Origin: Calditrichota bacterium | Lineage (GTDB): Bacteria; Calditrichota; Calditrichia; Calditrichales; Calditrichaceae | NCBI GenBank assembly: GCA_024278755.1 | Contig: JAJRSO010000077.1 | Span: forward strand, 1-52,324 | Direction of reading: 5' to 3' | Length of the DNA stretch: 52,324 nt | Part shown: one piece after another, positions 5,202 through 25,879 of the stretch | Layout: each line of letters opens with the position of its first letter | How positions within the stretch are numbered: position 1 is the stretch's first letter | Notes under the pieces: model-generated | Databases searched by the model: none | The model's input: only the letters and a program-made list of their open reading frames with translations | What the model was told of the DNA's origin: nothing | Position numbers and translations under genes: made by a program

Positions 5202-5303
5202 TAGTAGCAGTTCTCAGAGACCTGTCACTACTACAGGACGCCAACCAATAATCATAGGAATTGGCAAAAGCCGGTTCCTGTTAGTTCAAATGAAAGGTTG
5301 ATT

Positions 5304-6533
5304 ATGATAGAAGAACGAATCATGAACCGCATCGGCAATCTGGAAACAGAAGCCGTTAATCTGATGACAAAATTGATTCCCATTAATTCTCTCGGCCCGC
5401 TGAATGACGGCCCCGGTGAGATGAAAAAGGCGGATTTTCTTAAAACATATCTGCAAGAGATGGGTGTTACGGATATTACAAATTATCCGGCTCCGGATCC
5501 TTCGGTAGAAGGCGGATCCAGGCCTAATCTGGTTGCTAAAATTCCCGGTAAAAATACCGAAAAAACCATCTGGATTTTAGCGCATACGGATATCGTCCCT
5601 GCCGGTGATTTGAGCAAGTGGGACACCGAACCGTTTGAAGCAGTGGTAAAAGAGGGACGCATCTACGGACGAGGCACCGAGGATAATCACCAGGGGATGC
5701 TTAGCGGCATCATTGCCATGCGCGCTTTTCTCGAAGAGGGGATTCAGCCCGAATACAATCTGGCCCTGGCGCTTGTGGCGGACGAGGAGACCGGAAGCGC
5801 CTTCGGATTGCAGTATCTCGCGGATAATCATAGTGATTTGTTTTCGAAGGATGATTTAATCGTTGTTCCCGACGCCGGCGAGCCGGACAGCAGTATGATC
5901 GAGGTGGCCGAAAAATCCATTATCTGGGTAAAGGTGAAAACGCTGGGACAGCAGGTACATGCCAGCACACCGGATCGGGGGATTAACGCTTATAAAGCGG
6001 CGGCCTGGCTTACGGTTCAATTCGAAAAACTGCACGATCTGTTTAACGCCAACGATCCGGTGTTCGATCCGCCCATCTCCACTTTTGAACCGACCAAGAA
6101 AGAGGCCAATGTACCTAATATCAACACCCTGCCCGGCGAGGATGTGTTTTACCTCGACTGCCGTATTTTGCCTGTGTATGAAATTAAATACGTGATGGCG
6201 GAAATCCGCAAAATGGCGGACGAGACCGAAGCAAAATACGGGGTTAAAATTGAATTAAGCACCGAGCAGGAAGAGCAGGCTGCGCCGGCGACTCCGGTGG
6301 ACGCGCCCGTAGTTAAGGCGTTGGAGAAAGCGGTTAAAGAAGTGTACGGAATTGATGCGAAACCGATGGGTATCGGCGGCGGTACGGTGGCGGCTATTTT
6401 TCGCCGGGCCGGATTTAATGCGGCGGTCTGGTCGACTTTGGATGATTTAGCGCATCAGCCCAATGAATATTGTAAAATTTCAAATATGATGAACGATGCA
6501 AAAGTGTTCGGGCGCATCTGTTTACAAAAATAA
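5304..6533 (+). CDS. M20-family metallohydrolase (ArgE/DapE/CPG2-like)
   Basis: A 409-residue zinc amidohydrolase/peptidase of family M20. The ATG at 5304 is preferred because GAAAGG ends 6 bases upstream; an in-frame TTG lies at 5298. The co-catalytic metal residues are in LAHTDIVP, RGTEDNHQG and DEETGSAFG, with the dimerisation domain around QQVHASTPDRG and a final GGGTVAAIFR segment. M20 enzymes cleave amide bonds of small acylated amino acids, ureides or dipeptides; the substrate here is unknown. It sits immediately before ygeY and ygeW, so a shared catabolic pathway for a nitrogen-rich compound is likely. Confidence 0.88.
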   Translation: MIEERIMNRIGNLETEAVNLMTKLIPINSLGPLNDGPGEMKKADFLKTYLQEMGVTDITNYPAPDPSVEGGSRPNLVAKIPGKNTEKTIWILAHTDIVPAGDLSKWDTEPFEAVVKEGRIYGRGTEDNHQGMLSGIIAMRAFLEEGIQPEYNLALALVADEETGSAFGLQYLADNHSDLFSKDDLIVVPDAGEPDSSMIEVAEKSIIWVKVKTLGQQVHASTPDRGINAYKAAAWLTVQFEKLHDLFNANDPVFDPPISTFEPTKKEANVPNINTLPGEDVFYLDCRILPVYEIKYVMAEIRKMADETEAKYGVKIELSTEQEEQAAPATPVDAPVVKALEKAVKEVYGIDAKPMGIGGGTVAAIFRRAGFNAAVWSTLDDLAHQPNEYCKISNMMNDAKVFGRICLQK

Positions 6534-6627
6534 AAACCAGGTTAGAGATTCCGGTTGCCAATTTCCGAGAGGAGCGGGTCCTGAAAATTGGTCATTGGTT
6601 CTTAAACCTTAAATAGGAAAAAGATCT

Positions 6628-7824
6628 ATGGAAAGTAACTTAATAAACAAGATTACCCAATTGGCAGAAAAATATACGGCCGATACGGCTCAATTTTTAC
6701 GCGATATGATTGCTATTCCTTCGGTAAGCTGTGAAGAAGAGGGCGTGGTGCGGCGCATTAAAGAGGAAATGGAAACCATCGGATTTGACGAGGTTACCAT
6801 CGATCCCATGGGCAATGTTTTGGGACGCATCGGTTCCGGAAAACGCATTATCGTTTTTGACGCCCATGTGGATACGGTGGATGTGGGTAATCCCGATTTG
6901 TGGCAGGTGGATCCGTTTAAGGGTAAACTGGAAAACGGAATTATCTACGGACGCGGCGCATCCGATATGGAAGGCGGAATGGCGGCCATCACCTATGCCG
7001 GAAAAATTTTGAAGGAAATCGGCATTCCCGATGATGTGACCGTGTACGCCGTAGGCAGCGTGCAGGAAGAAGACTGCGACGGTCTCTGCTGGCAATATAT
7101 TTATAAGGAAGATAAAATTAATCCGGATTTGGTGGTGATCACCGAACCGACCAATTTGAATATTTACCGCGGTCACCGCGGCCGCATGGAGCTGGAAGTG
7201 GAAACCTCCGGCATCTCCTGCCACGGTTCCGCGCCGGAACGGGGCGAAAACGCTATCTATAAAATGGCGCCCATTATTCAGGAAATAGAACAGCTCAACG
7301 AGCGGCTTAAACACGATGATTTCCTTGGCAAGGGTACGGTGACCATTTCCCATATCCGTTCCACCGCTCCTTCGCTCTGCTCGGTATCGGACGGCTGCAC
7401 CATTCATCTGGACCGCAGACTGACTGCCGGAGAGACCGACGAAAGCGCCATGGACGAAATCCGTAATTTACCCTCGTTTAAAAAGGGAAACGCTAAAATT
7501 CGCGTGTTGGAATACGATACGCCAAGTTACACCGGATTAAAATATCCAACCCGTAAATACTATCCCACCTGGCATTTTGAAGAATCCGATCCGCATGTGC
7601 AGGCGTCCATAAAATCGTATCGGGCTATCTTTGGCTCGCAGCCCATAGTGGATAAATGGACCTTTTCCACCAACGGAGTTGCGACGGCGGGTATGTTCGG
7701 CATCCCGACCATCGGTTTCGGCCCGGCCAATGAGATTTATGCCCACGGGCCGCAAGATCAATGCCCGGTGGAGCATCTGACCAAAGCCATGATGTTTTAT
7801 GCAACGCTGGTGTGGGAATTCTGA
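6628..7824 (+). CDS. ygeY: YgeY-type M20 hydrolase
   Basis: A 398-residue M20 metallohydrolase closely resembling YgeY, a family usually annotated as selenium metabolism-linked because of genome context. Metal-site motifs are FDAHVDTVD, GRGASDMEGG and VQEEDCDG, and the SCHGSAPERGENAIY dimerisation motif is present. Its reaction is not established. It is the second of two M20 genes and is followed at 7969 by ygeW, the pairing seen in E. coli. No ygeX, ygeZ or selenium-dependent hydroxylase gene lies in the window, so the selenium label should not be carried over. SD is AGGAAAAAG before ATG 6628. Confidence 0.88.
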   Translation: MESNLINKITQLAEKYTADTAQFLRDMIAIPSVSCEEEGVVRRIKEEMETIGFDEVTIDPMGNVLGRIGSGKRIIVFDAHVDTVDVGNPDLWQVDPFKGKLENGIIYGRGASDMEGGMAAITYAGKILKEIGIPDDVTVYAVGSVQEEDCDGLCWQYIYKEDKINPDLVVITEPTNLNIYRGHRGRMELEVETSGISCHGSAPERGENAIYKMAPIIQEIEQLNERLKHDDFLGKGTVTISHIRSTAPSLCSVSDGCTIHLDRRLTAGETDESAMDEIRNLPSFKKGNAKIRVLEYDTPSYTGLKYPTRKYYPTWHFEESDPHVQASIKSYRAIFGSQPIVDKWTFSTNGVATAGMFGIPTIGFGPANEIYAHGPQDQCPVEHLTKAMMFYATLVWEF

Positions 7825-7832
7825 TGCACTGC

Positions 7833-7939
7833 TTCCCCCTTATTAAAGGGGGACTGAGGGGGTTATTCATAGTTTAACCAGTACATCGCACTTTTAAATC
7901 ATATTACAACCCCCTAACCCCCTTATTTAAGGGGGAATT
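7833..7939. repeat. intergenic inverted-repeat element (32-base arms, MITE-like)
   Basis: The left arm (7833-7864), TTCCCCCTTATTAAAGGGGG plus ACTGAGGGGGTT, is nearly the reverse complement of the right arm (7908-7939). The arms are separated by about 43 bases of AT-rich DNA. Each arm itself contains a CCCCC/GGGGG palindrome. It fills the spacer between ygeY and ygeW without interrupting either. The structure resembles a miniature non-autonomous element or a REP-type repeat, with no transposase nearby. Confidence 0.7.
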
Positions 7940-7968
7940 AGTTGGTACTTTTAAGGAAAGGAAAAACA

Positions 7969-8943
7969 ATGAACCTCAAAGGACGTGATTTTATATCCAC
8001 TCAGGACTGGACGAAGGAAGAACTCATCGCCGCCCTGGATAAATCGGCAGAACTAAAACAAAAGTTTAAAGACGGCATTCCGCATCGCGAATTGCAGGAT
8101 AAAACCAATTTTTTAATTTTCTTTGATAAATCCACCCGCACGCGCAATTCTTTTGAAGCGGGAATGACCCAGCTCGGCGGACACGCCCATTTTATCGATT
8201 CCGGTACGTCTCAAATTGCCCACGGAGAGAGTCCCAAGGATATGGGAATCATCCTGTCCAGTTACGGGCACGGCATCGCCATTCGACACGATCTGGTTCC
8301 CGGTGAGGGAAATACTTACATGCGTGAAGTGGCCAAACACGCCTCTGCCCCTGTCTATAATATGCAGTGCGATGTGGATCATCCCTTTCAGATGATGGCC
8401 GATTTAATGACCATTCGCGAGATATTCGGCGATAATCTGCAAGGTAAAAAAATCGCCGTTTCATGGGCGTATGCACCCAGTTATGCCAAACCCATGTCGG
8501 TGCCACAGGGGCTGATTATGCTGATGACCCGCTTTGGCATGGATGTGACTCTGGCTCATCCGCCGGAATATACGCTGATGGACGGACCGATGACCGCCGC
8601 CAAAAAAAATGCGGCCGAAAACGGCGGCAGCTTTAGGGTAGTGGATTCCATGGACGAAGCCTTTAAAGATGCCGATATCGTCTATCCAAAAAGCTGGGGC
8701 ATTCAATCCCTGTTTCATAAACCGGAAGAGGCGCTGGAAATATCCAAAAAATACAAACACTGGATTTGTGACGAAGAAAAAATGAAACTGACAAAAAAGA
8801 ATTCCATTTATATGCACTGTCTGCCCGCCGACCGCGGATACGAAGTGACCGACGCCGTAATCGACGGCCCGCATTCGGTGATTTACCAGGAAGCGGAAAA
8901 CCGCCTGCATACGGCTAAGGGAATTATGGCCTTAACCATGTAA
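7969..8943 (+). CDS. ygeW: knotted carbamoyltransferase YgeW
   Basis: A 324-residue member of the aspartate/ornithine carbamoyltransferase superfamily, YgeW branch. The ATG at 7969 follows the strong AAGGAAAGGA site; an upstream TTG frame opening at 7942 is not needed. The carbamoyl-phosphate loop reads KSTRTRNSFE. Later motifs are DADIVYPKSWG and MHCLPADRG. The physiological acceptor of the family is not settled. Being next to two M20 hydrolases suggests phosphorolytic carbamoyl transfer or release from a ureido compound produced by them, which is an inference. A terminator directly follows. Confidence 0.9.
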   Translation: MNLKGRDFISTQDWTKEELIAALDKSAELKQKFKDGIPHRELQDKTNFLIFFDKSTRTRNSFEAGMTQLGGHAHFIDSGTSQIAHGESPKDMGIILSSYGHGIAIRHDLVPGEGNTYMREVAKHASAPVYNMQCDVDHPFQMMADLMTIREIFGDNLQGKKIAVSWAYAPSYAKPMSVPQGLIMLMTRFGMDVTLAHPPEYTLMDGPMTAAKKNAAENGGSFRVVDSMDEAFKDADIVYPKSWGIQSLFHKPEEALEISKKYKHWICDEEKMKLTKKNSIYMHCLPADRGYEVTDAVIDGPHSVIYQEAENRLHTAKGIMALTM

Positions 8944-9173: not shown

Positions 9174-12100
9174 TTATTTTTGAAAAGCCATCTGCGCTTT
9201 TTTACGACTCTTTTTCAAATCATCCAAAATAGCTACCAGCGCCGGAATGACCATCAGCGTCAGCGCCGTGGAAACCAGTAATCCGAATAAAATAACATTT
9301 GCCAGCGGCGCCCACATTTCGGAGGAACCGCCCAATCCAAAGGCCATCGGGATCAGGCCGGAAATTGTGGTTACCGAAGTTAAAATAACCGGACGCAGCC
9401 GCAACCGGCCCGCATTGATAATACTGCGCCACAATTGGTAAACGGTGTTGCCTTTTTCCTGGCGGCGATTGTTAATAAAATCAACCAGAATAATGGCGTC
9501 GTTCACCACGAGACCGGCCAAAGCAACAAACCCGAACAGGGAAACGATGCTAAAGGGGTTGTTCGAAATGAGCAACCCCATCATGGCGCCGATAAGCGCA
9601 AAAGGCACCGTGGTTAAAATGATCAGCGGCTGTGAATAGGAATTAAACTGTACGCCGAGAATCAGGAAAATAAGAATGACGCTGAAAAAAAACAGAACAC
9701 CGATATCCTGAAAGACATTCATAAACTCTTCAAACTGCCCGCCAATTTTAAGGTGAACCCCGGAAAATTCTTTTTCGATGGCCGGGAAAAAGGAAGCAAG
9801 CTTTTTATTAACCACATCTAATTTGATTTTTTCTTTTTCAATATTTCCTGTCACCAGAATCGTCCGTTTTTGGTTGAACCGCTGAATATCGGTCGGGCCG
9901 GGCTGAATTTTAAAGGAAACCATATCGCGTAGCGCCACGGTTTGTCCTGTAGCGTTGGTTAGTTTCAGGTAGAGCACATCATTCAGCGCGCTTCGGTTCT
10001 CCTGATTATATTTGACAATTACGTCTATCTCTTCGTCTCCCTCACGATATTCGGTCGCTTTAATTCCGTCAAAGGCATAACGTACATTTAGGGCTACATA
10101 CCGGGTATTAAATCCATACAAAGCGGCTTTTTCTTCATCTACGACAATACGAATTTCCTTTTTCCCCGGCGGGAAGTTATCACTGATATCGTAGGCTCCT
10201 TCGATGGATTTTATGGAATCCTGTAAAGCCAGCGCGGCCGTTTTTATCTGAGTAAGATATTTTCCCTGTACTTTTACCGAAATGTCTTTCCCTACGGGGG
10301 GGGCGTTGGCAAGCATTTCGAATTCCACCGAAGAGGGGCCGCTGATATGCGCTGTACGTTCACGGAGCATTGAAATAATGGCGTCCGCCGGAATATCCCT
10401 GTCATCCGCCGGAAGAAGCTGAATTAAAATCTGTCCCACATTCTTTTTGGTTACCCATTCTTCGTTACCCTGCAGAAGACCAACGTTAACAACATAATCC
10501 TGCATCGCTTCTTTTGGAAGAGACGCACAGATGTTTTCATATTTTTGCATAATACGGTCAGTCTCTTCGAGGCTGCTTCCCTCGGGAAGTTTAACAAGCA
10601 CTTTTACCTGGTCGAAATCCGCTTCGCCGTACATTTCCACACCCAGGATCGGGTACAAAATGATGGGCGTTACAAACAGAATAACAACCAGCACACCCAT
10701 AACGAGGTAACGGAAACGCACAGCAAAAACGACTGATTTTGTATAAAAACGGCGTAGACGTTTAAAGAATTTTTTCTCGCCATTTTTATAAACCCGTGAA
10801 TTTGCGGTCCAGTCGGCATAGTGTGAGGGTAGTAAAAATAGAGCTTCAAAAAGAGAAGCCACCAGCGCCAGGGCAAAGACAAAGGGAATAATGCGCATAA
10901 ATTTCCCCATAATGCCGGTTAATAAAATAAGTGGCAGAAAGGCGGCAATATTGGTCCCGATGGAAGATAAAATGGGTTTAATGACTTCGGTCGTTCCCTT
11001 GACGGCCGATTCCACCGCGCTGTATCCGCTCAGCCGGTAACGGTGGCTGTTCTCAAGAATAATAATAGCGTCGTCCACAATAATACCAAGCACCATTACT
11101 AAGGCAAACAGGGTGTTTCCATTGATGGTGTATCCGAACAGATACATAAAAATAAATGTAATTAAAAAGGAAATAGGAATTCCCAGAGCGGCTAACGCGG
11201 CATTACCGAATCCCAGGAATAAATAGAGTACGATGACGATCATTATCATACCGAGAATGGCGTTATTGCGTAAAATATTGATGGTCTGTAAAATATACAC
11301 CGAGTTATCGTTAGTGAAACTAAAATTAACACCGTTCGGTACGGTTTTCCGGTACGATTCGATTAGGGCCTTTACGCGGTCAATAACATCGATAGAATTA
11401 ACGTTGTTTTGTTTGGAGATGGAAAACGTAATCGACTGCTCACCGTTAAGCCGCGATAAAATAGACATTTCTTCGCGACGGTCCACTACTTTAGCCACAT
11501 CGCGGATACGAATAAAATCACCTTTACCGGAAGGGCGTAAGATGGTTTGCCCGATTTCGTTAATAGAGCCATATTCGCCAACGGAACGGATGAAATATTC
11601 ACTTTTTCCGAACGAAATGGTGCCGCCCGGAACATTCAGATTGCGGGTGCGCAGGGCCATCGCCACCTGATCAAACGTAATCCCGTAGCTGTTCATCATT
11701 TAGGGATCCATTTCCACCCATATTTCCCGGTCTGCCAGTCCCGATACCTGCGTTTTGGCGACGCCTGGAATATCTTCGATGTCCTCCCGTATTTTATCCG
11801 CAATGCGGTAGGCGTTTTCTTCGGGAATGGTAAAGGCCATATTAACGGTAATCACCGGCATAAAATCCCCGGATGAAAAAACATCGATCTGAGGATCTTC
11901 GGCATCATCCGGCAGTTTAATTTTATCCACTTCCGCTTTTAGGTCGGTCAAACGTTCCCGGAATTTTTCATCGGAGATATCGGCAAATTTCACCATTACA
12001 AACCCGAATCCTTCGCCGCCGGTGGACTGAATTTCATCAATATCATCCACATCCTGAATCTCGGATTCGATGGGATCCACAATCAGCGCTTCTGTTTCGG

Positions 12101-12269
12101 AAGGGGATGCGCCGGTGTAGGGTACGATGATCATGACCCAGTTAAAACTGATTTCAGGATTCAGTTCGGTGGGCATGCGCTGTATAGAAATCCAGCCCAT
12201 CGCCACCAGACCGATCATCAGCATATTTACTAAAACGGAATTTTTTACTGAGAATTTTGCGATGTTCAT
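9174..12269 (-). pseudogene. RND (HAE1/AcrB-type) efflux pump, interrupted by in-frame TAA
   Basis: The inner-membrane pump of a tripartite efflux system, with about 1030 codons in one frame from ATG 12269 to 9174, the normal AcrB length. A TAA at 11702-11700 interrupts the frame after REIWVEMDP and before MMNSYGITFDQV, a position where family members usually carry a polar residue such as Glu. The N-terminal 189-residue part has the first transmembrane helix and porter subdomain. The remaining part holds the TM4 acidic pair in VLGIIVDDAIIILE and the usual second set of helices. No frame change accompanies the stop, and both halves look fully conserved. Either a recent nonsense mutation or a base-call error (GAA to TAA) fits. 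It follows the adaptor gene by 137 bases. Confidence 0.85.
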
Positions 12270-17595: not shown

Positions 17596-17704
17596 CTTAT
17601 GTGGTTTACAGCTCTTTAGGGAACAATCATTATTGTCGGCTGTTCAAGAAAAAGGAAAAGGAATTGTTGGCTTCAATCCGTATTTCAGGAAGAAAAGGAA
17701 TGAA

Positions 17705-20503
17705 ATGAATTTAAAATTTACCATACTTTTTTTAACGGTATTTAGCGCGGTACTTCTGGCGCAAACGCCCCAAATAGTTTTTCAGACTAAGTGGGGAAGC
17801 GATCCGGAACAGGCGGGGCTGCGCGAATCTTTTGACGGGCGATATGGGCCGCAGGCGTTTCGGGTTAAAGGCGACAGCGTTTTAATTTTAGATGAACAAA
17901 ACCGTGCATTAAAAATATTTTATAATGGTATTATGCTGCAATCCATTGCAATTAGCTCTGTTTCCAAAGATTTTTTACGGCCGGACAACCGAAATTTAAC
18001 CGTGCTTAACGATGATAAACTACACTTTTTTAAAGACGGAAAAATAGTTTCCTCTGCCGTAGTCGGAAAGGGGAAAGTGGTGCAGGCTATTCAAAAAACG
18101 GCCGATGGCGCTGTTCTGCATTTTTCAGACGGTGAGAATGTCGCTTTAGCTCCGGGACAATCTCTGAAAAAAAGTAGCCCTTCCGTGCAAGTCTTTAAAC
18201 GCAGCGCTTCACTAGCGGAAATAATCGTACCGTCAGCCAATAAACAAACCTCTTTCACGATTGACTTCCCGGAACAAAACCTGGCCGATTTACAGTTCAT
18301 CGGCATGGATGGACAAAATCATCTTTTTTTTCATATTGATTTGTTTATGCAGCAAGTACCGCTTAAGGTGAAACGGGAAGTGCGTGTTTTTGATTTAAAC
18401 GGAACACATCTGCTTACCTATGGAATTCCACTGAATGATTTCGCCTTAATTTTCCGCGATCTCGAAGTAACGGACGACGGCAGTCTGTACCAGATGATTC
18501 AGTTGCCGGAAGAGTTACAAATACTTAAATGGTCCTGGCCGGGCAGTGCGGTTGGTTTCCCATTTGAAATGGAAGCGCCGGAATATGACTGGAATCGCGA
18601 AGAGCGGCAATCTCTCTTTGAAGCGGAGCCGGCCGATCTTCCTAAATTAACGGATTTACCGAATGTCACGCAGGAACAGGCCCTGAGTATCGGAGATACG
18701 TATGTGCAGCTGCACTGGAACTGCACGACCGAGAATCTGACCAATGGCGTTGTTACCGATCCCTATGGCAACCATGTGGAAACGCCGGACTGGCTCTACG
18801 TGGGCAATGTGCAGCGTGTGCCCTATAAATGGGGCGGGTTTAATACCATTCAGGAATATTTAGATGGCATTGCCGCCGGGAAATATGCCGGGGACAAGGC
18901 CACCGATTCGGTTTCACCTTTAGCCGTAGGAGTTGACTGTTCCGGTTTTGTATCGCGCTGCTGGACCCTGCCAACTCATTATTCCACGCGAATGATGGAT
19001 GACTATATTGCCCGAGCGTATGACAGCTGGGAGCAAACCCTTCCCGGCGATATTTGTCACCGGCCCGGTCATGTGCGCCTGATTGTGGGACATAATCCGG
19101 ACGGAACGCTGGATATGGTGGAAGCCGCCGGATTTAACTGGCGGGTATCTTACACTAATTACCGCTATTCTGCCATCACGTCTTATACGCCGCGCTACTA
19201 CATCAATATGCAGGGACGAACCACTACGGCGCTGGCGACGTTTAGCTGGGTAAAAAATGACAATAATGCGCATTTAAAATGGAATGTGAACGATGCCGGC
19301 GTTGTATCGGAATACCATCTCTATCTTTCCGCAGACGGAAAAAGCTGGAATGAAAAGCAGGTTATTTCTTCCGATAGTAATTCCTTTTCGCTGGCTCTGG
19401 AAGATACGCAGGCAATTTATTATAAACTCAAATGCGCGGCCGTGGCCGACAACACCGTCGAAGGCCTTGAATCGGACGGATACGGTACCTTCCGTAACAG
19501 CCGCAGGGAAAAAGTGTTGATTGTGGACGGCTTCGATCGCACCTCCGATCAAAGCGGCAGTTGGGCGCATCCCTACCATAATTTTTCCATTAGCCACGGA
19601 CAGGCCTTGCAGGCGGCGCACATTCCATTTGAAACGGCAGCCAACGAAGCGGTGGTCAGCGGCGCAGTGAAATTGAATAACTATCCGGCGGTTGTTTGGA
19701 TTCTGGGTGACGAAAGCACGGTTGATGAAACATTCAATACAGCCGAACAGGGTTTGGTTAAAGAATATCTGCAGCAGGGCGGGCAGCTTTTTGTAACTGG
19801 TCCGGAGATCGGTTGGGATTTGGACCATAAGGGCTCGGATGAGGATAAGGCCTTTTATCATAATTTTCTTAAAGCGATCTATGCCGAAGACGACGCGGCT
19901 TCATATACTGTAAAAGGGAAAAGCGGCACTTTGTTTAGCGCATTATCTCTGCATTATGACGATGGAAGCCACGGTGTTTATGAAGAAGATTACCCGGATG
20001 CTATTGCCACGTCCGGAGGAAGTCAGGTGGCGCTAAGCTATGCCAATGGAAAAACGGCCGGCGTCTCTTTTAAGGGCATCTTTTCAGGCGGAAGCAAAGA
20101 GGGGCGTCTTGTCTATCTGGCTTTTCCGTTTGAAACTATTTATTCCGAAAGCGAACGGGATTCGCTGATGAAGAAAGTGATGACGTTCTTTGATATTCCC
20201 GAAATTGCCGTACCCGAAATTATACCGGAAAAACTGGCGCTTTACGGGAATTATCCCAATCCGTTTAACGGACGCACCCGCATTCGTTTTTCCAGCCCCG
20301 ATATCGGCCGGTTAACATTAACCATATTTGATGTTTTGGGAAGAGTCGTTCAAACGAAACATTTCTCCGTAAACCATCCCGGCCGGCAGGAGCTTATAAC
20401 GGACGCCGGTAACCTGAGCAGCGGCGCCTATTTTTACAGAATCCATTTAAAGTCCGAAAGCGGCGCCTGGAAGGTCGATGGCAAGTTTGTGCTGCTAAAA
20501 TAA
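17705..20503 (+). CDS. secreted NlpC/P60-like protein with FnIII-like region and T9SS sorting domain
   Basis: A 932-residue exported protein. The ATG at 17705 follows AAAAGGA and starts a signal peptide (MNLKFTILFLTVFSAVLLAQ). Residues 20-300 resemble a six-bladed beta-propeller (repeated strands such as FDLNGTHLLTYGIPL). An NlpC/P60 cysteine-peptidase module follows with Cys412 in VDCSGFVSRCW and His456 in PGHVRLIVGH, suggesting peptide or peptidoglycan cleavage. A fibronectin-like region (about 500-600) precedes a GATase-like module (VWILGDESTVDE ... GGQLFVTGPEIGWD) of the sort found in xanthan-lyase-type proteins. The end is a T9SS sorting domain (NYPNPFNGRTRIRF). Its natural substrate is unknown. 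Confidence 0.88.
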   Translation: MNLKFTILFLTVFSAVLLAQTPQIVFQTKWGSDPEQAGLRESFDGRYGPQAFRVKGDSVLILDEQNRALKIFYNGIMLQSIAISSVSKDFLRPDNRNLTVLNDDKLHFFKDGKIVSSAVVGKGKVVQAIQKTADGAVLHFSDGENVALAPGQSLKKSSPSVQVFKRSASLAEIIVPSANKQTSFTIDFPEQNLADLQFIGMDGQNHLFFHIDLFMQQVPLKVKREVRVFDLNGTHLLTYGIPLNDFALIFRDLEVTDDGSLYQMIQLPEELQILKWSWPGSAVGFPFEMEAPEYDWNREERQSLFEAEPADLPKLTDLPNVTQEQALSIGDTYVQLHWNCTTENLTNGVVTDPYGNHVETPDWLYVGNVQRVPYKWGGFNTIQEYLDGIAAGKYAGDKATDSVSPLAVGVDCSGFVSRCWTLPTHYSTRMMDDYIARAYDSWEQTLPGDICHRPGHVRLIVGHNPDGTLDMVEAAGFNWRVSYTNYRYSAITSYTPRYYINMQGRTTTALATFSWVKNDNNAHLKWNVNDAGVVSEYHLYLSADGKSWNEKQVISSDSNSFSLALEDTQAIYYKLKCAAVADNTVEGLESDGYGTFRNSRREKVLIVDGFDRTSDQSGSWAHPYHNFSISHGQALQAAHIPFETAANEAVVSGAVKLNNYPAVVWILGDESTVDETFNTAEQGLVKEYLQQGGQLFVTGPEIGWDLDHKGSDEDKAFYHNFLKAIYAEDDAASYTVKGKSGTLFSALSLHYDDGSHGVYEEDYPDAIATSGGSQVALSYANGKTAGVSFKGIFSGGSKEGRLVYLAFPFETIYSESERDSLMKKVMTFFDIPEIAVPEIIPEKLALYGNYPNPFNGRTRIRFSSPDIGRLTLTIFDVLGRVVQTKHFSVNHPGRQELITDAGNLSSGAYFYRIHLKSESGAWKVDGKFVLLK

Positions 20504-20657
20504 GAAAAATAAAGGCTCTGTGTTGACCTGTTTGGGCATTGAAGAGTATTGATTAACCGGCCACTGATTTACTCCGAAAAAATAGCGACATTCCTTTAAT
20601 TGAAGTCATAATTAATCTTCATACTTTATGCTTACGCATAATGCAATCCGCCGGATT

Positions 20658-20731
20658 CGGGGTTTGTAGCAAACAACCCGTTCATTGAGTTCTCTGCCCC
20701 CTGTCCCGGGAATTTCCGAAACAGGGGAGAG
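20658..20731. terminator. hairpins between convergent secreted-protein and ammonium channel genes
   Basis: Two stems lie in this 239-base convergent spacer. One pairs CGGGGTTTG (about 20658) with CAAACAACCCG, with a two-base bulge. The other pairs CTCTGCCCCCTGT (20692-20704) with ACAGGGGAGAG (20721-20731). Neither has a good T-run, so termination is plausible rather than clear. Confidence 0.4.
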
Positions 20732-20742
20732 AGGAAGGTGTA

Positions 20743-21900
20743 CTAATCTTCGGCGTCAAACTCCAGCGCATCATCGTAAATATCCTGCCGCGCACCCAGC
20801 AGCGAAATAATTTTACCCGATAGTAAGCCCGAAAAAACAGCAATTCCAACGGTAATTACAATTCCAAGAAGCTGTGCTTTAATATCCAGATTATGAACGA
20901 CAAAAATAGCGGCCAGTCCGCCAAAGATTCCCGGTATTCCGTGTAAATTCGATACGCCGCAGGTATCGACAATTTTATGAAAATTTTCCTGTTTTTCCTG
21001 AAAGATGGCAAATCCAACGGTTGAAATGGCGCCGGCCAGCAGACCGATAATGATTGCTTCGAGATGGGTGGCGTGATTAAAGGTAGCGCCGATGGCCACA
21101 CCGCCGGCGAGAGCGGCATTGGCAATATCGGCTGCACTGATTTTCCCCCGGATGGAAACGGAGGCGATGTAGGTGGCTATTGTGGAGCCGGAGAGCGCCA
21201 TAAATACGTTTACAACCGAAGCGGGAACTGCTTCCACCGGCACAAGCGCCGCACAAAAACTGGGCCAGAACACCCATAAAACCATACTACCCAGTAGCGA
21301 AAATTTATCGGAAACGGCGTCCGATTCAATGGAGACTTCCCGGTCTTTTTGTGTGGTCAGAGAAACGGCCGCCGAAATTCCAAACAGCGCGCCAAAGGCG
21401 TGAATGACTATGGAACCGCCGGTATCGGCAATGGCACCGATAAAATTAAAATAATCGCCAACCACTACCAGTTCATTTATGATGTAAAAAGGAATAAAGA
21501 GCAATCCCAATAAAATATACTGATGCATCTTGATACGTCCAAGTACGGCGCCGGCGGCAATGAGCAGACTGGCCGCACCGAATTCCGCCAGAATAAACTG
21601 TTCCATTTCGGGTTTTGTTTCAAAAATGCCCATACTTTTTATGGCGAGATACATGGGTAAAGCAACGCTGACCAACAAAAAGGTCGCCGTTAAAGCAGAA
21701 CGTCCGTATTTTTTTACAAAGACCATTAAAAAGCCAAAACCGAGTAATAACATCGCCATAATGTGTATGGAACGATTGTATTGCTGTACTTCCAGAATGG
21801 AAGAAATGGCGCTGTTTCCAAATCCCTGAGCATACATATTTACCGAGGAAGCAAACAGAAGAAGAATGATTGCCGTGACCTTTTTCGTGAAATTTTTCAT
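20743..21900 (-). CDS. Rh-type (Rhesus glycoprotein family) ammonium/ammonia channel
   Basis: A 385-residue membrane channel of the Amt/Mep/Rh superfamily with a signal-like first segment ending near MYAQ and about 11 helices. It follows the Rh rather than the bacterial AmtB branch: DTGGSIVIHAFGALFGI and DTCGVSNLHGIPGIFGG match animal RhCG almost residue for residue, as does GFGFLMVFVKKYG. The conserved pore histidines are His167 and His320. It should pass NH3/NH4+ and possibly CO2. No glnK/PII gene is adjacent, unlike typical amtB loci. Upstream on the same strand is a histidine kinase gene, 104 bases away. Confidence 0.92.
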   Translation of the reverse strand: MKNFTKKVTAIILLLFASSVNMYAQGFGNSAISSILEVQQYNRSIHIMAMLLLGFGFLMVFVKKYGRSALTATFLLVSVALPMYLAIKSMGIFETKPEMEQFILAEFGAASLLIAAGAVLGRIKMHQYILLGLLFIPFYIINELVVVGDYFNFIGAIADTGGSIVIHAFGALFGISAAVSLTTQKDREVSIESDAVSDKFSLLGSMVLWVFWPSFCAALVPVEAVPASVVNVFMALSGSTIATYIASVSIRGKISAADIANAALAGGVAIGATFNHATHLEAIIIGLLAGAISTVGFAIFQEKQENFHKIVDTCGVSNLHGIPGIFGGLAAIFVVHNLDIKAQLLGIVITVGIAVFSGLLSGKIISLLGARQDIYDDALEFDAED

Positions 21901-22004
21901 ATGAATCCCTTTAGCTAATAAATTGAAGTGTCGTATGTTTAATGTGAATTAATTCGTTAAGTTAGAGTCTCTTTTCTATGGATCGGATTGGTATATTAAA
22001 TATT

Positions 22005-23066
22005 TTACGGTTCTAAAATAGGAAGGGTAAATATGAAGGTTGTTCCACCATCCGGGTTATTTTCTGCTTCGATGGCCCCGCCGTGGGCCTCTACTATTAA
22101 CTTGCAGATGTACAGGCCAAGTCCCTGTCCTTTATGTTTGTGTTTGTAATCGAGAATTCTAAAAAACTTATTAAATACGAATGGGATTTGATCATCTAAC
22201 AAACCCGGGCCGGAATCGATAATGCGGAATTCGATCTCTTTTTGTTCCAATGCCCGAACAAGAATCTGGACGGCGCCGTTTTCGGGGCTGAATTTAACCG
22301 CATTATGGATCAGGTTGTTTAAAACGCGCTGAATGGCCAGGGTGTCAATGGAAATTTCTGGAAGATCCGCCGCAATTTTCGGAATAAATTTGATATTTTT
22401 TCGATCGGCCTGAATCCACAAAGCGCGCAGAGTCTCGTCTAAGAACTGGTTCAGGTTGGTATTGAGTTTTAATAATTCGAATTGATTCTTTTCAAACTGG
22501 TACACCTGGCCCAGTTCTTCCATTAATTCGATTATGGAATCTCCGAGAGAGAGCGCGCTTAATAATATTTGCCGCTGCCCTTCGGATACTTCGCCGAAAA
22601 CTTCCTGCTCCAATAATTCGATATAGCCGATTATACTTTGCGCTGGCGAGCGTAAATCATGTAGTAGCATTCCGGAAAGGTCGGCCTGGCGTTTATGAAG
22701 TCGCGTTAAATTAAAAATGTTATTGATATGTGTTTTTATTTCGAGAGGCCTGTCCAGCGTTTCCTGCGGAAGCAGGTAGTGCACCGGAAGCGTTTTGGGA
22801 ATTTCATTTTGTCCGGTGATTAACGCAATAAACAAAACCGGCAATTTGCTGCGCAGCTTATGAATTATCTGGGAAAGCTGGGCGTCAAGCGTGTCGGCCT
22901 GGCAGATAAAAATATCATAATTGTCTTCTTCCACCAATGCCGGTAAAACCACCTGCTGCGATTCAAAACGGATATGAACCGGAAGCGTTCCGAGCGCATC
23001 TTGCAATATATTTAAATGATTGGTGTTCTGCGAGAACAACAGAACTTCCAGTGTGGACGTCGGCAA
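22005..23066 (-). CDS. histidine kinase with degenerate N-terminal receiver
   Basis: A 353-residue soluble sensor kinase. Residues 5-115 look like a response-regulator fold, but the strand that should end in the phospho-acceptor Asp reads YDIFICQAD, so it is probably a pseudo-receiver. The HisKA H-box is LLHDLRSPAQS with His136. The ATP-binding domain has N-box LNNLIHNAVKF, the G1 loop DSGPGL and the G2 loop GQGLGLYICK. The TTG start at 23066 has AAAGGAAAG just upstream, inside the end of the crotonase gene, and begins one base after that gene's stop, so the two are translationally coupled. The input signal and partner regulator are not evident. Confidence 0.87.
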   Translation of the reverse strand: MPTSTLEVLLFSQNTNHLNILQDALGTLPVHIRFESQQVVLPALVEEDNYDIFICQADTLDAQLSQIIHKLRSKLPVLFIALITGQNEIPKTLPVHYLLPQETLDRPLEIKTHINNIFNLTRLHKRQADLSGMLLHDLRSPAQSIIGYIELLEQEVFGEVSEGQRQILLSALSLGDSIIELMEELGQVYQFEKNQFELLKLNTNLNQFLDETLRALWIQADRKNIKFIPKIAADLPEISIDTLAIQRVLNNLIHNAVKFSPENGAVQILVRALEQKEIEFRIIDSGPGLLDDQIPFVFNKFFRILDYKHKHKGQGLGLYICKLIVEAHGGAIEAENNPDGGTTFIFTLPILEP

Positions 23067-23067
23067 T

Positions 23068-23850
23068 TTACTTTCCTTTAAATTCGGGTTTGCGTTTTTC
23101 CAGAAAAGCGCTGGTGCCCTCTTTCATATCGTTGGATGCGCAGCTTTTTCCGAAATAATCGGCTTCTAAGCGTATGCCGTCTTCGAGGCTTACATTTAAC
23201 CCGCGGTTTACCGTCTCTAATACATAAGACGCAGCCAGAGGCGCTTTTTTCAGAATCGTATTTAATATTTTTTGACCCGCCGCTACCAACGTTTCGGCGG
23301 ATATAACTTGATTGACCAGTCCCATTTCATAAGCTCGTTGGGCATCGATCATATTTCCGGTTAATAAAAGTTCCAATGCACGGCCTTTGCCGATGAGCCG
23401 TGCCATACGCTGCGTACCGCCGTAACCGGGAATCAACCCCAGGTTTACTTCCGGCTGACCAAACTTGGCGTTTTCCGAGGCCAGGCGCAAATGGCAGGCC
23501 ATAGCGAGTTCGCATCCGCCGCCCAGAGCAAATCCGTTTACCAAAGCAATAACCGGTTTCGTACAATTCTCGATACGCGCAAAAACCTGCTGGCCAAAAC
23601 GGGCAAATGCTTCCCCTGAGGTTAAGTCCAGCGCCTGAATTTCTGCAATGTCCGCACCGGCGGCAAACGCTTTTTCGCCCGAACCGGTCAGTAAAATACC
23701 CCGTATCTGTTCATCCTTTTCAATTTCGGAAAAGGCAGAGTCAAGTTCTTCAAGGGTACGTCGATTAAGAGCATTCAGTTTATCCGGACGGTTTAGGGTA
23801 ATTGTAAGCAGAGGCGGGTCTTTTTTTAACAGCAGGTTTGTATAATTCAT
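23068..23850 (-). CDS. enoyl-CoA hydratase/isomerase (crotonase) family protein
   Basis: A 260-residue crotonase-fold enzyme. The CoA-binding and oxyanion segments are LNRPDKLNALN, AFAAGADIAEI and NGFALGGGCELAMACHLRLA. The two catalytic glutamate positions of enoyl-CoA hydratase appear in GGCELA and FGQPEVNLGLIPGYGGTQR. This supports 2-enoyl-CoA hydration, as in fatty acid or butyrate-type pathways. It is the first gene of a two- or three-gene minus-strand unit with the histidine kinase and lies divergent from the propionate operon, with a 358-base shared upstream region. Confidence 0.9.
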   Translation of the reverse strand: MNYTNLLLKKDPPLLTITLNRPDKLNALNRRTLEELDSAFSEIEKDEQIRGILLTGSGEKAFAAGADIAEIQALDLTSGEAFARFGQQVFARIENCTKPVIALVNGFALGGGCELAMACHLRLASENAKFGQPEVNLGLIPGYGGTQRMARLIGKGRALELLLTGNMIDAQRAYEMGLVNQVISAETLVAAGQKILNTILKKAPLAASYVLETVNRGLNVSLEDGIRLEADYFGKSCASNDMKEGTSAFLEKRKPEFKGK

Positions 23851-24208: not shown

Positions 24209-25879
24209 ATGACACATAAAAAAATATTGAAACAAAAAAAAGAATGGGAAAGCGGCGTCCTTAACAAAGTATTGGCCAAAAATGCCGAGCGGAAAAAAGA
24301 ATTTACGACCAGTTCCTGGCAGCCGGTTGAACGGGTGGCTTTGCCCGATAGCTGGGACGCCCAGAAATATCTGGATAAACTGGGTTTTCCGGGAGAATAT
24401 CCCTATACCCGGGGCGTTCAGCCGACCATGTACCGCGGACGCTTGTGGACGATGCGTCAGTATGCCGGATTCGGTACGGCCGAAGAATCGAACGAACGCT
24501 ATAAATATTTATTGAGCCAGGGGCAAACCGGTTTGTCTGTTGCCTTTGACCTACCCACTCAAATCGGGTACGATTCGGACGATGAACACAGCATCGGCGA
24601 AGTAGGCAAGGTGGGCGTGGCCATCGACACCTTAAAAGATATGGAAATTCTCTTTGATGGAATTCCGCTGGATAAGGTCTCTACTTCGATGACCATAAAC
24701 GCGCCGGCCGCCGTACTTTTGGCCTTTTATATTGCCGCGGCCGAAAAACAGGGCGTGCCGAAAAACAAACTACGCGGCACCATTCAAAATGATATTCTAA
24801 AATAATATATTGCCCGCGGTACTTATATCTATCCGCCTAAAGCTTCCCTGCGCCTGATTACGAATATTTTCGAATACTGCGCCGCCGAGGTGCCTAATTG
24901 GAATACGATTAGTATTTCCGGCTACCATATCCGCGAAGCGGGTTCCACTGCCGCTCAGGAAGCGGCTTTTACACTGGCCGATGGTATCGAATATGTTAAA
25001 GCTGCCATTGCTGCCGGAATGGATGTGGATAAATTTGCCGGACGTCTTTCATTCTTTTTTAACGCACATAATGATCTGCTGGAAGAGGTGGCAAAATTCC
25101 GGGCCGCGCGCCGTATTTGGGCGAAAATAATGAAAGAAAAATTTAAGGCGCAAAATCCAAAATCGATGATGCTGCGCTTTCATACACAGACCGGCGGCAG
25201 TACCCTTACCGCTCAGCAACCCGATAATAACATCGTTCGCGTAACCATTCAGACTCTGGCGGCGGTTCTGGGCGGAACACAAAGTCTGCATACCAATTCG
25301 CGGGATGAGGCTTTGGGATTGCCTACGGAAGAGGCGGTACGGATTGCCTTGCGCACCCAGCAGATTGTGGCCCACGAATCGGGCGTAGCTTCTACGGTAG
25401 ACCCGCTGGCCGGTTCGTATTTTGTTGAATCCCTGACGGATAAAATGGAAGAAAAGGTATGGGAATATCTGAATAAAATCGAAGAGATGGGCGGCATGGT
25501 ACGCGCCATTGAAAATGGATATGTACAAAAAGAGATTCAGGATGCGGCTTTTAAATACCAGCGTGAAATCGAAGAGGTGGAACGGATTCAGGTAGGTGTA
25601 AACAAGTTTACGGTAGAGGATGAAACGCCGCAGGATATTCTTAAAGTGGATCCCACGCTGAGGGAAGTGCAGATAAAAAAAATAGCGGCGGTTCGAGAAA
25701 ATCGTAATAATGAAGTCGTTCAAAAGATATTAGCCGATTTAAAAACAGCCGCGGCCGATCCAAAAGAGAATTTAATGCCGCTGATTGTGGAAGCCGCCGG
25801 AGAATATGCCTCCCTCGGAGAAATCAGTAACGTGTTGCGCGAGGCGTTCGGGGAATACGAAGAGACGGTCGTTCTTTAG
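24209..25879 (+). pseudogene. mcmA: methylmalonyl-CoA mutase large (catalytic) subunit, interrupted by in-frame TAA
   Basis: The substrate-binding TIM-barrel subunit that interconverts succinyl-CoA and methylmalonyl-CoA with adenosylcobalamin. The frame 24209-25879 has 556 sense or stop codons, full length for the split archaeal-type enzyme. The acyl-CoA segment [17 protein letters not shown] (residues 64-80) and [17 protein letters not shown] are present. Codon 199 is TAA (24803-24805), exactly where the family has an almost invariant Glu ([15 protein letters not shown]). Sequence on both sides is perfectly conserved and in the same frame. Either a single G-to-T change or a base-call error explains it; an active enzyme would need readthrough. 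Downstream genes of the pathway are intact. Confidence 0.9.

Follow-up and report, generated by a model that had tools for sequence, protein, structure and literature searches.

The window analyzed here, a 52,324-nucleotide stretch of a Calditrichota draft genome (contig JAJRSO010000077.1), contains an intact open reading frame at positions 20743-21900 on the minus strand. It starts with ATG and encodes a 385-residue protein, assigned to the Rh50 ammonia channels by Pfam and PDB matches, a phylogenetic tree, residue mapping and a predicted structure with its fold match. Upstream, an AT-rich gap of 104 bp (21901-22004; 28% GC), which may hold a promoter of the gene's own on the minus strand, separates it from a histidine kinase gene with a degenerate receiver-like N-terminus (22005-23066), beyond which, further upstream, lies an enoyl-CoA hydratase (ECH) gene (23068-23850), both on the minus strand as well. 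On its other side, a gap at 20504-20742 lies between the Rh gene and a convergent plus-strand gene (17633-20503) for a secreted protein with a type IX secretion system (T9SS) C-terminal sorting tail. The single sigma-70-like match found (22031-22002) is weak and about at chance level, and a scan for promoters and terminators around the Rh gene gave results near the expectation from shuffled sequence.

Elsewhere in the window, an RND efflux pump gene (9174-12269) is divided into two abutting open reading frames (11700-12269 and 9174-11699), which may reflect a frameshift, an in-frame stop codon, a sequencing error or a true split. The gene for the methylmalonyl-CoA mutase large subunit (24209-25879) also consists of two open reading frames (24209-24805 and 24890-25879), possibly through a frameshift. 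An operon-like run at 5298-8943 encodes an M20 peptidase, a YgeY-family selenium-linked hydrolase scoring above its NCBIfam cut-off and a YgeW-like or ornithine-type carbamoyltransferase, and suggests the breakdown of amino acids or carbamoyl compounds on the contig that carries the Rh gene.

Family, fold and pore of the Rh protein

The window protein matches the Amt/Mep/Rh superfamily model of Pfam (PF00909, 1.9e-42) and scores 86.8 bits against the NCBIfam Amt model TIGR00836, below the cut-off of 343.3 for Amt-type proteins. Its best match among solved structures is Nitrosomonas europaea Rh50 (NeRh50; PDB 3b9w, 3b9y and 3bhs; E 8e-102), with human RhAG (4e-52) and RhCG (1e-44) also retrieved, and the sole Amt among these matches is the Kuenenia sensor Amt (6eu6, 1e-7). 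Pairwise identity amounts to 51% with NeRh50 over 344 columns, 49% with the Rh protein of Peptoclostridium acidaminophilum, 36% with RhAG, 34% with RhCG and 18% with Escherichia coli AmtB. The original prediction had placed the protein nearer to animal Rhesus glycoproteins than to AmtB on the basis of its twin-histidine motifs, of which NLHGIPGI occurs as quoted and the first, slightly misquoted, reads VIHAFGALFG. Its preference for Rh over AmtB is borne out, but the closest kin are bacterial: identity reaches 51-78% with bacterial Rh50 proteins and 34-36% with the human proteins, which sit on a long separate branch.

A scan of one-genome-per-species contigs yielded 80 Rh relatives of the window protein, 49-80% identical to it. 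In a tree of 77 Rh and Amt proteins that includes E. coli AmtB, a single branch with 100/100 support divides the two types, and the window protein falls on the Rh side, outside the AmtB clade, where its nearest companions are Rh proteins from Bacteroidota/Chlorobiota records (75-78% identity). A topology forcing it among the Amts was rejected by an AU test (p-AU 0.0027).

Mapping onto mature AmtB numbering revealed that the window protein keeps the phenylalanine gate (F107 and F215), the pore aspartate (D159, equivalent to AmtB D160) and the twin histidines (H167 and H320), and all 78 Rh relatives counted share these five residues. The same holds in 78/78 Rh proteins for N142, E143 and G271, which are identical in 0/26 Amts. 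The external ammonium site of AmtB (S1) is lost, with W148 and S219, a Trp and Ser present in 26/26 Amts, replaced by V146 and L219; substitution of this pair by other residues is common to other Rh proteins. The protein thus has the superfamily fold, gate, pore aspartate and twin histidines in common with AmtB and differs from it in lacking the Trp/Ser site, the AmtB-type tail and a linked glnK gene.

The predicted structure (pLDDT 89) consists of a hydrophobic, signal-like N-terminal helix followed by eleven membrane helices. NeRh50 is its closest fold match, with Z 59 and 1.1 Å over 353 residues, compared with Z 53 for RhAG, Z 52 for RhCG, which carries an extra helix TM0, and about Z 37-45 for AmtB structures. 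NeRh50 also has the same pore residues, and the two human proteins have the same pore motif. Sequence, tree, residues and fold therefore strongly support the window gene as a genuine bacterial Rh50, of Rh rather than Amt type.

Neighboring genes and probable arrival of the Rh gene

The original prediction correctly noted that a histidine kinase gene lies just upstream on the same strand, and its 'pseudo-receiver' label is fair, as the kinase N-terminus is predicted to alternate strands and helices in the manner of a receiver domain, with Q56 at the position of the phosphoacceptor aspartate, yet Pfam returns no Response_reg match in it at E ≤ 1. The adjacency of Rh and kinase on one strand across a 104-bp gap, together with the existence of fused Amt-kinase sensors (PMC5764959), could be read as a two-gene ammonium sensor comparable to the fused Amt-kinase of Kuenenia. 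We consider such a sensor highly improbable, since kinase homologues occur in 27 of 40 genomes of the phylum, 17 of those 27 having neither Rh nor Amt, and since the ECH gene adjoins the kinase gene in eight of the ten relatives' regions fetched, as it does in the window. The other two regions gave no hydratase match, in one case because the kinase gene is cut off by the start of the contig. Furthermore, at none of the 80 Rh loci does an orthologue of the kinase adjoin the Rh gene, the nine kinase matches there being generic. Because the kinase is paired with ECH in Rh-less genomes and has no orthologue at Rh loci, it belongs with the hydratase gene: it is a conserved ECH partner across the phylum and not part of the Rh system. 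Unlike the Amt5-type Amt-histidine kinase sensor of Kuenenia, it is neither fused to nor consistently paired with the channel, and synteny in relatives speaks against a functional kinase-Rh pair, contrary to any link suggested by proximity. The combination of ECH and degenerate-receiver kinase (22005-23850 in the window; loci L144-L153) is in its own right a conserved gene pair of the phylum.

A genome of the same family, G004, carries the ECH gene, the kinase gene and then the convergent T9SS gene in the same order with no Rh gene between them, and PF00909 has no match anywhere in that genome. The T9SS-protein match there ends at most about ten bases from the last kinase match, so that they either adjoin each other directly or have a slight overlap, whereas in the window they stand 1.5 kb apart (20504-22004) with Rh in between; that 1.5 kb is absent from the corresponding place in G004. 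The flanking genes share 52-66% protein identity with their G004 counterparts. Among the 40 phylum genomes, Rh is found in the window genome only, and ten of the other 39 hold at least one full-length Amt, one carries a piece of a family member where a contig ends, and the remaining 28 give no match. The isolated occurrence of Rh in the phylum might hint at a contaminant or mis-binned piece, a reading that we regard as exceedingly unlikely given that the gene lies inside one contig, that the ECH-kinase pair and the T9SS gene occupy the same place in G004, and that composition is uniform along the locus.

These observations suggest that the Rh gene was apparently acquired horizontally, as a later arrival between the kinase and secreted-protein genes; its survival in the window genome through losses in the other sampled relatives appears less likely than a gain. 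With 46% GC and a GC3 of 48%, the gene resembles its neighbors and has no atypical base composition of the kind that marks recent transfer, which implies that a transfer, if any, either dates back some time or involved a similar donor. A search for mobile-element scars at the site found only short, chance-like repeats. No gene neighborhood is conserved around Rh across the 80 loci, where the largest shared cluster of neighbors comprises assorted regulators. The source would be the pool of Rh50 genes in sediment bacteria of the Bacteroidota/Chlorobiota type, from which the transferred gene may have landed between the kinase gene and the secreted-protein gene. The Rh50 proteins of sediment Bacteroidota, Chlorobiota and Ignavibacteriota (L031-L050) are 67-80% identical to the window protein and belong to the same clade, and several come from genomes without Amt; they differ in their gene neighbors and in belonging to phyla other than that of the window genome.

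PII proteins and the putative role of the channel

The window Rh is the only PF00909 match in its genome, a draft that is 95.8% complete, so that an Amt or GlnK gene could sit in the missing few percent. No PII gene adjoins it in the window, in agreement with the original prediction that no glnK accompanies it, whereas glnK and amtB are neighbors in E. coli. Three PII-superfamily proteins are encoded in the genome, all on other contigs (C23, C17 and C38): one gene follows an RND efflux gene, one lies among hypothetical genes and the third, under the Pfam cut-off, is near PTS-type genes. None of the three contains the GHAELYRGAEY T-loop, with its tyrosine, that E. coli GlnK has, and NCBIfam PII models place two of the PII-like proteins far under their cut-offs, the remaining one having no NCBIfam match. 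An AmtB-glnK locus elsewhere, which had been suggested as a check, is likewise not found in the 95.8%-complete draft. The window Rh is thus supported as the one ammonia channel known from this genome, and it does not belong to an AmtB-GlnK loop. Escape from PII control, which the original prediction took to be implied, is plausible because no PII gene is linked, no GlnK is recognizable in the draft genome and the tail is not of Amt type. As a separate observation, the PII-like gene at L002:1501-1836, which immediately follows the gene for an RND-type efflux pump and lacks the GlnK T-loop, probably encodes a PII variant tied to metal efflux rather than to nitrogen.

NeRh50 has been reported to transport ammonium in yeast and liposomes and to transport methylamine bidirectionally in a pH-dependent manner, and its current in liposomes has been attributed to H+ and NH3 taking separate routes (PMC7447429, PMC10794816). 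By analogy, the window protein would be a trimeric inner-membrane channel working like NeRh50. NH4+ would lose its proton close to the outer phenylalanine gate and the pore aspartate, and NH3 would then pass through the hydrophobic twin-histidine pore, with flow along the gradient in either direction. Its likely role is hence that of a bidirectional ammonia channel outside AmtB-GlnK control. NeRh50 is, in addition, the sole Amt/Mep/Rh gene product of its genome. N. europaea differs in being an ammonia oxidizer; the window genome gave no match to ammonia monooxygenase, a weak negative because the positive control gave none either.

The genome contains two glutamine synthetase-family genes and several dehydrogenases of the Glu/Leu/Phe/Val family. 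On contig C18, an octahaem protein of the hydroxylamine-oxidoreductase/hydrazine-dehydrogenase family adjoins a NapC/NrfH-like multihaem protein (L160:6451-9285), a pair that could possibly reduce nitrite to ammonia, as proposed for Caldithrix. With these three sets of genes, ammonia could be consumed as well as produced. Searches of the genome for NrfA returned only fragmentary matches to multihaem proteins; for NifH, the only matches were short, partial ones to related ATPases.

Two readings of the function compete with a channel for ammonia in both directions. Rh might mainly let out ammonia formed by the fermentation of amino acids or peptides, as an overflow valve, rather than take it up for assimilation. 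Some Rh-only bacteria, such as Eubacterium (Peptoclostridium) acidaminophilum, are amino-acid fermenters, and several Glu/Leu/Phe/Val-family dehydrogenases are present in the window genome. E. acidaminophilum is among the non-nitrifier Rh-only genomes (PMC5209957), Caldithrix abyssi is a peptide fermenter (PMC5317091) and roughly half the Rh-bearing genomes sampled have no Amt match. However, the two glutamine synthetase-family genes leave room for uptake, NeRh50 conducts in both directions and knocking it out reduces the uptake of methylamine (PMC10794816), and no degradative gene directly adjoins Rh, so that we give predominant release a serious but somewhat less than even chance. The other reading, a CO2 or mixed gas channel instead of an ammonia channel, draws on the proposal of a CO2 pocket from a single NeRh50 crystal structure and on the response of some Rh proteins to CO2, both as cited in PMC10433425 and PMC10794816. 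It appears quite unlikely, as the NeRh50 knock-out had no CO2-dependent growth effect, simulations show raised permeability for NH3 and not for CO2, RhCG has no CO2 pocket (PMC10433425, PMC10794816) and the gene surroundings hold no pointer to carbon uptake. Of the two substrates in the original prediction, 'NH3 or CO2', the former is a fair deduction by homology and the latter is disfavored by the literature. Taken together, we find it very probable that the window gene encodes an NeRh50-like Rh50 channel, acquired horizontally, which serves as the only known ammonia channel of its genome outside an AmtB-GlnK loop.

Occurrence of Rh50 among bacteria

Bacterial Rh50, Rh-only genomes included, has been known since 2017, and the window Rh is a further member of that family. 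Matassi found Rh50 in 34 of 3,853 prokaryote genomes and argued for horizontal transfer; 11 genomes had RH50 without AMT, anaerobic Firmicutes among them, and Bacteroidetes go unmentioned in the main text of that survey (PMC5209957). The Rh50 of P. acidaminophilum (NZ_CP007453.1) resembles the window protein in coming from an anaerobe with an Rh-only genome (49% identity), and differs in belonging to a Firmicute, in residing on a 0.8-Mb plasmid and in having a tree position closer to anammox Rh50. Going by the names in the records, we detected Rh50 in about 20 phyla. The claim that bacterial Rh proteins are uncommon holds within the phylum (1/40 genomes), but they form a described family with this wider spread. 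Among 35 sampled genomes holding Rh relatives, drafts of unstated completeness, Rh is the sole match in 17 and is accompanied by Amt in 18, and the eight sampled genomes with the most window-like Rh (75-80% identity; L031, L032, L034, L035, L036, L038, L045 and L046), also drafts of unstated completeness, are all Rh-only.

Our analysis makes two modest additions: the empty-site comparison and the observation that Rh50 is widespread in uncultured sediment bacteria, spanning about 20 phyla and often with no Amt alongside. We tentatively extend this to a broader proposal, which we hold to be rather doubtful as a whole, that Rh50 may be the standard and often sole ammonia channel in a broad set of anaerobic bacteria from sediments, outside the nitrifiers and anammox organisms, spread across phyla as a single gene and acting as an unregulated, PII-independent release valve. 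If it is true, the physiological class of Rh-only bacteria would extend far beyond the 11 genomes recorded in 2017. The window genome provides a clean Rh-only case outside the nitrifiers, in which the empty site points to single-gene arrival, and the spread of Rh50 in anaerobic sediment bacteria is indicated to be much wider than the 2017 survey suggested. Such Rh-only hosts supply material for the question of what Rh does that Amt does not.
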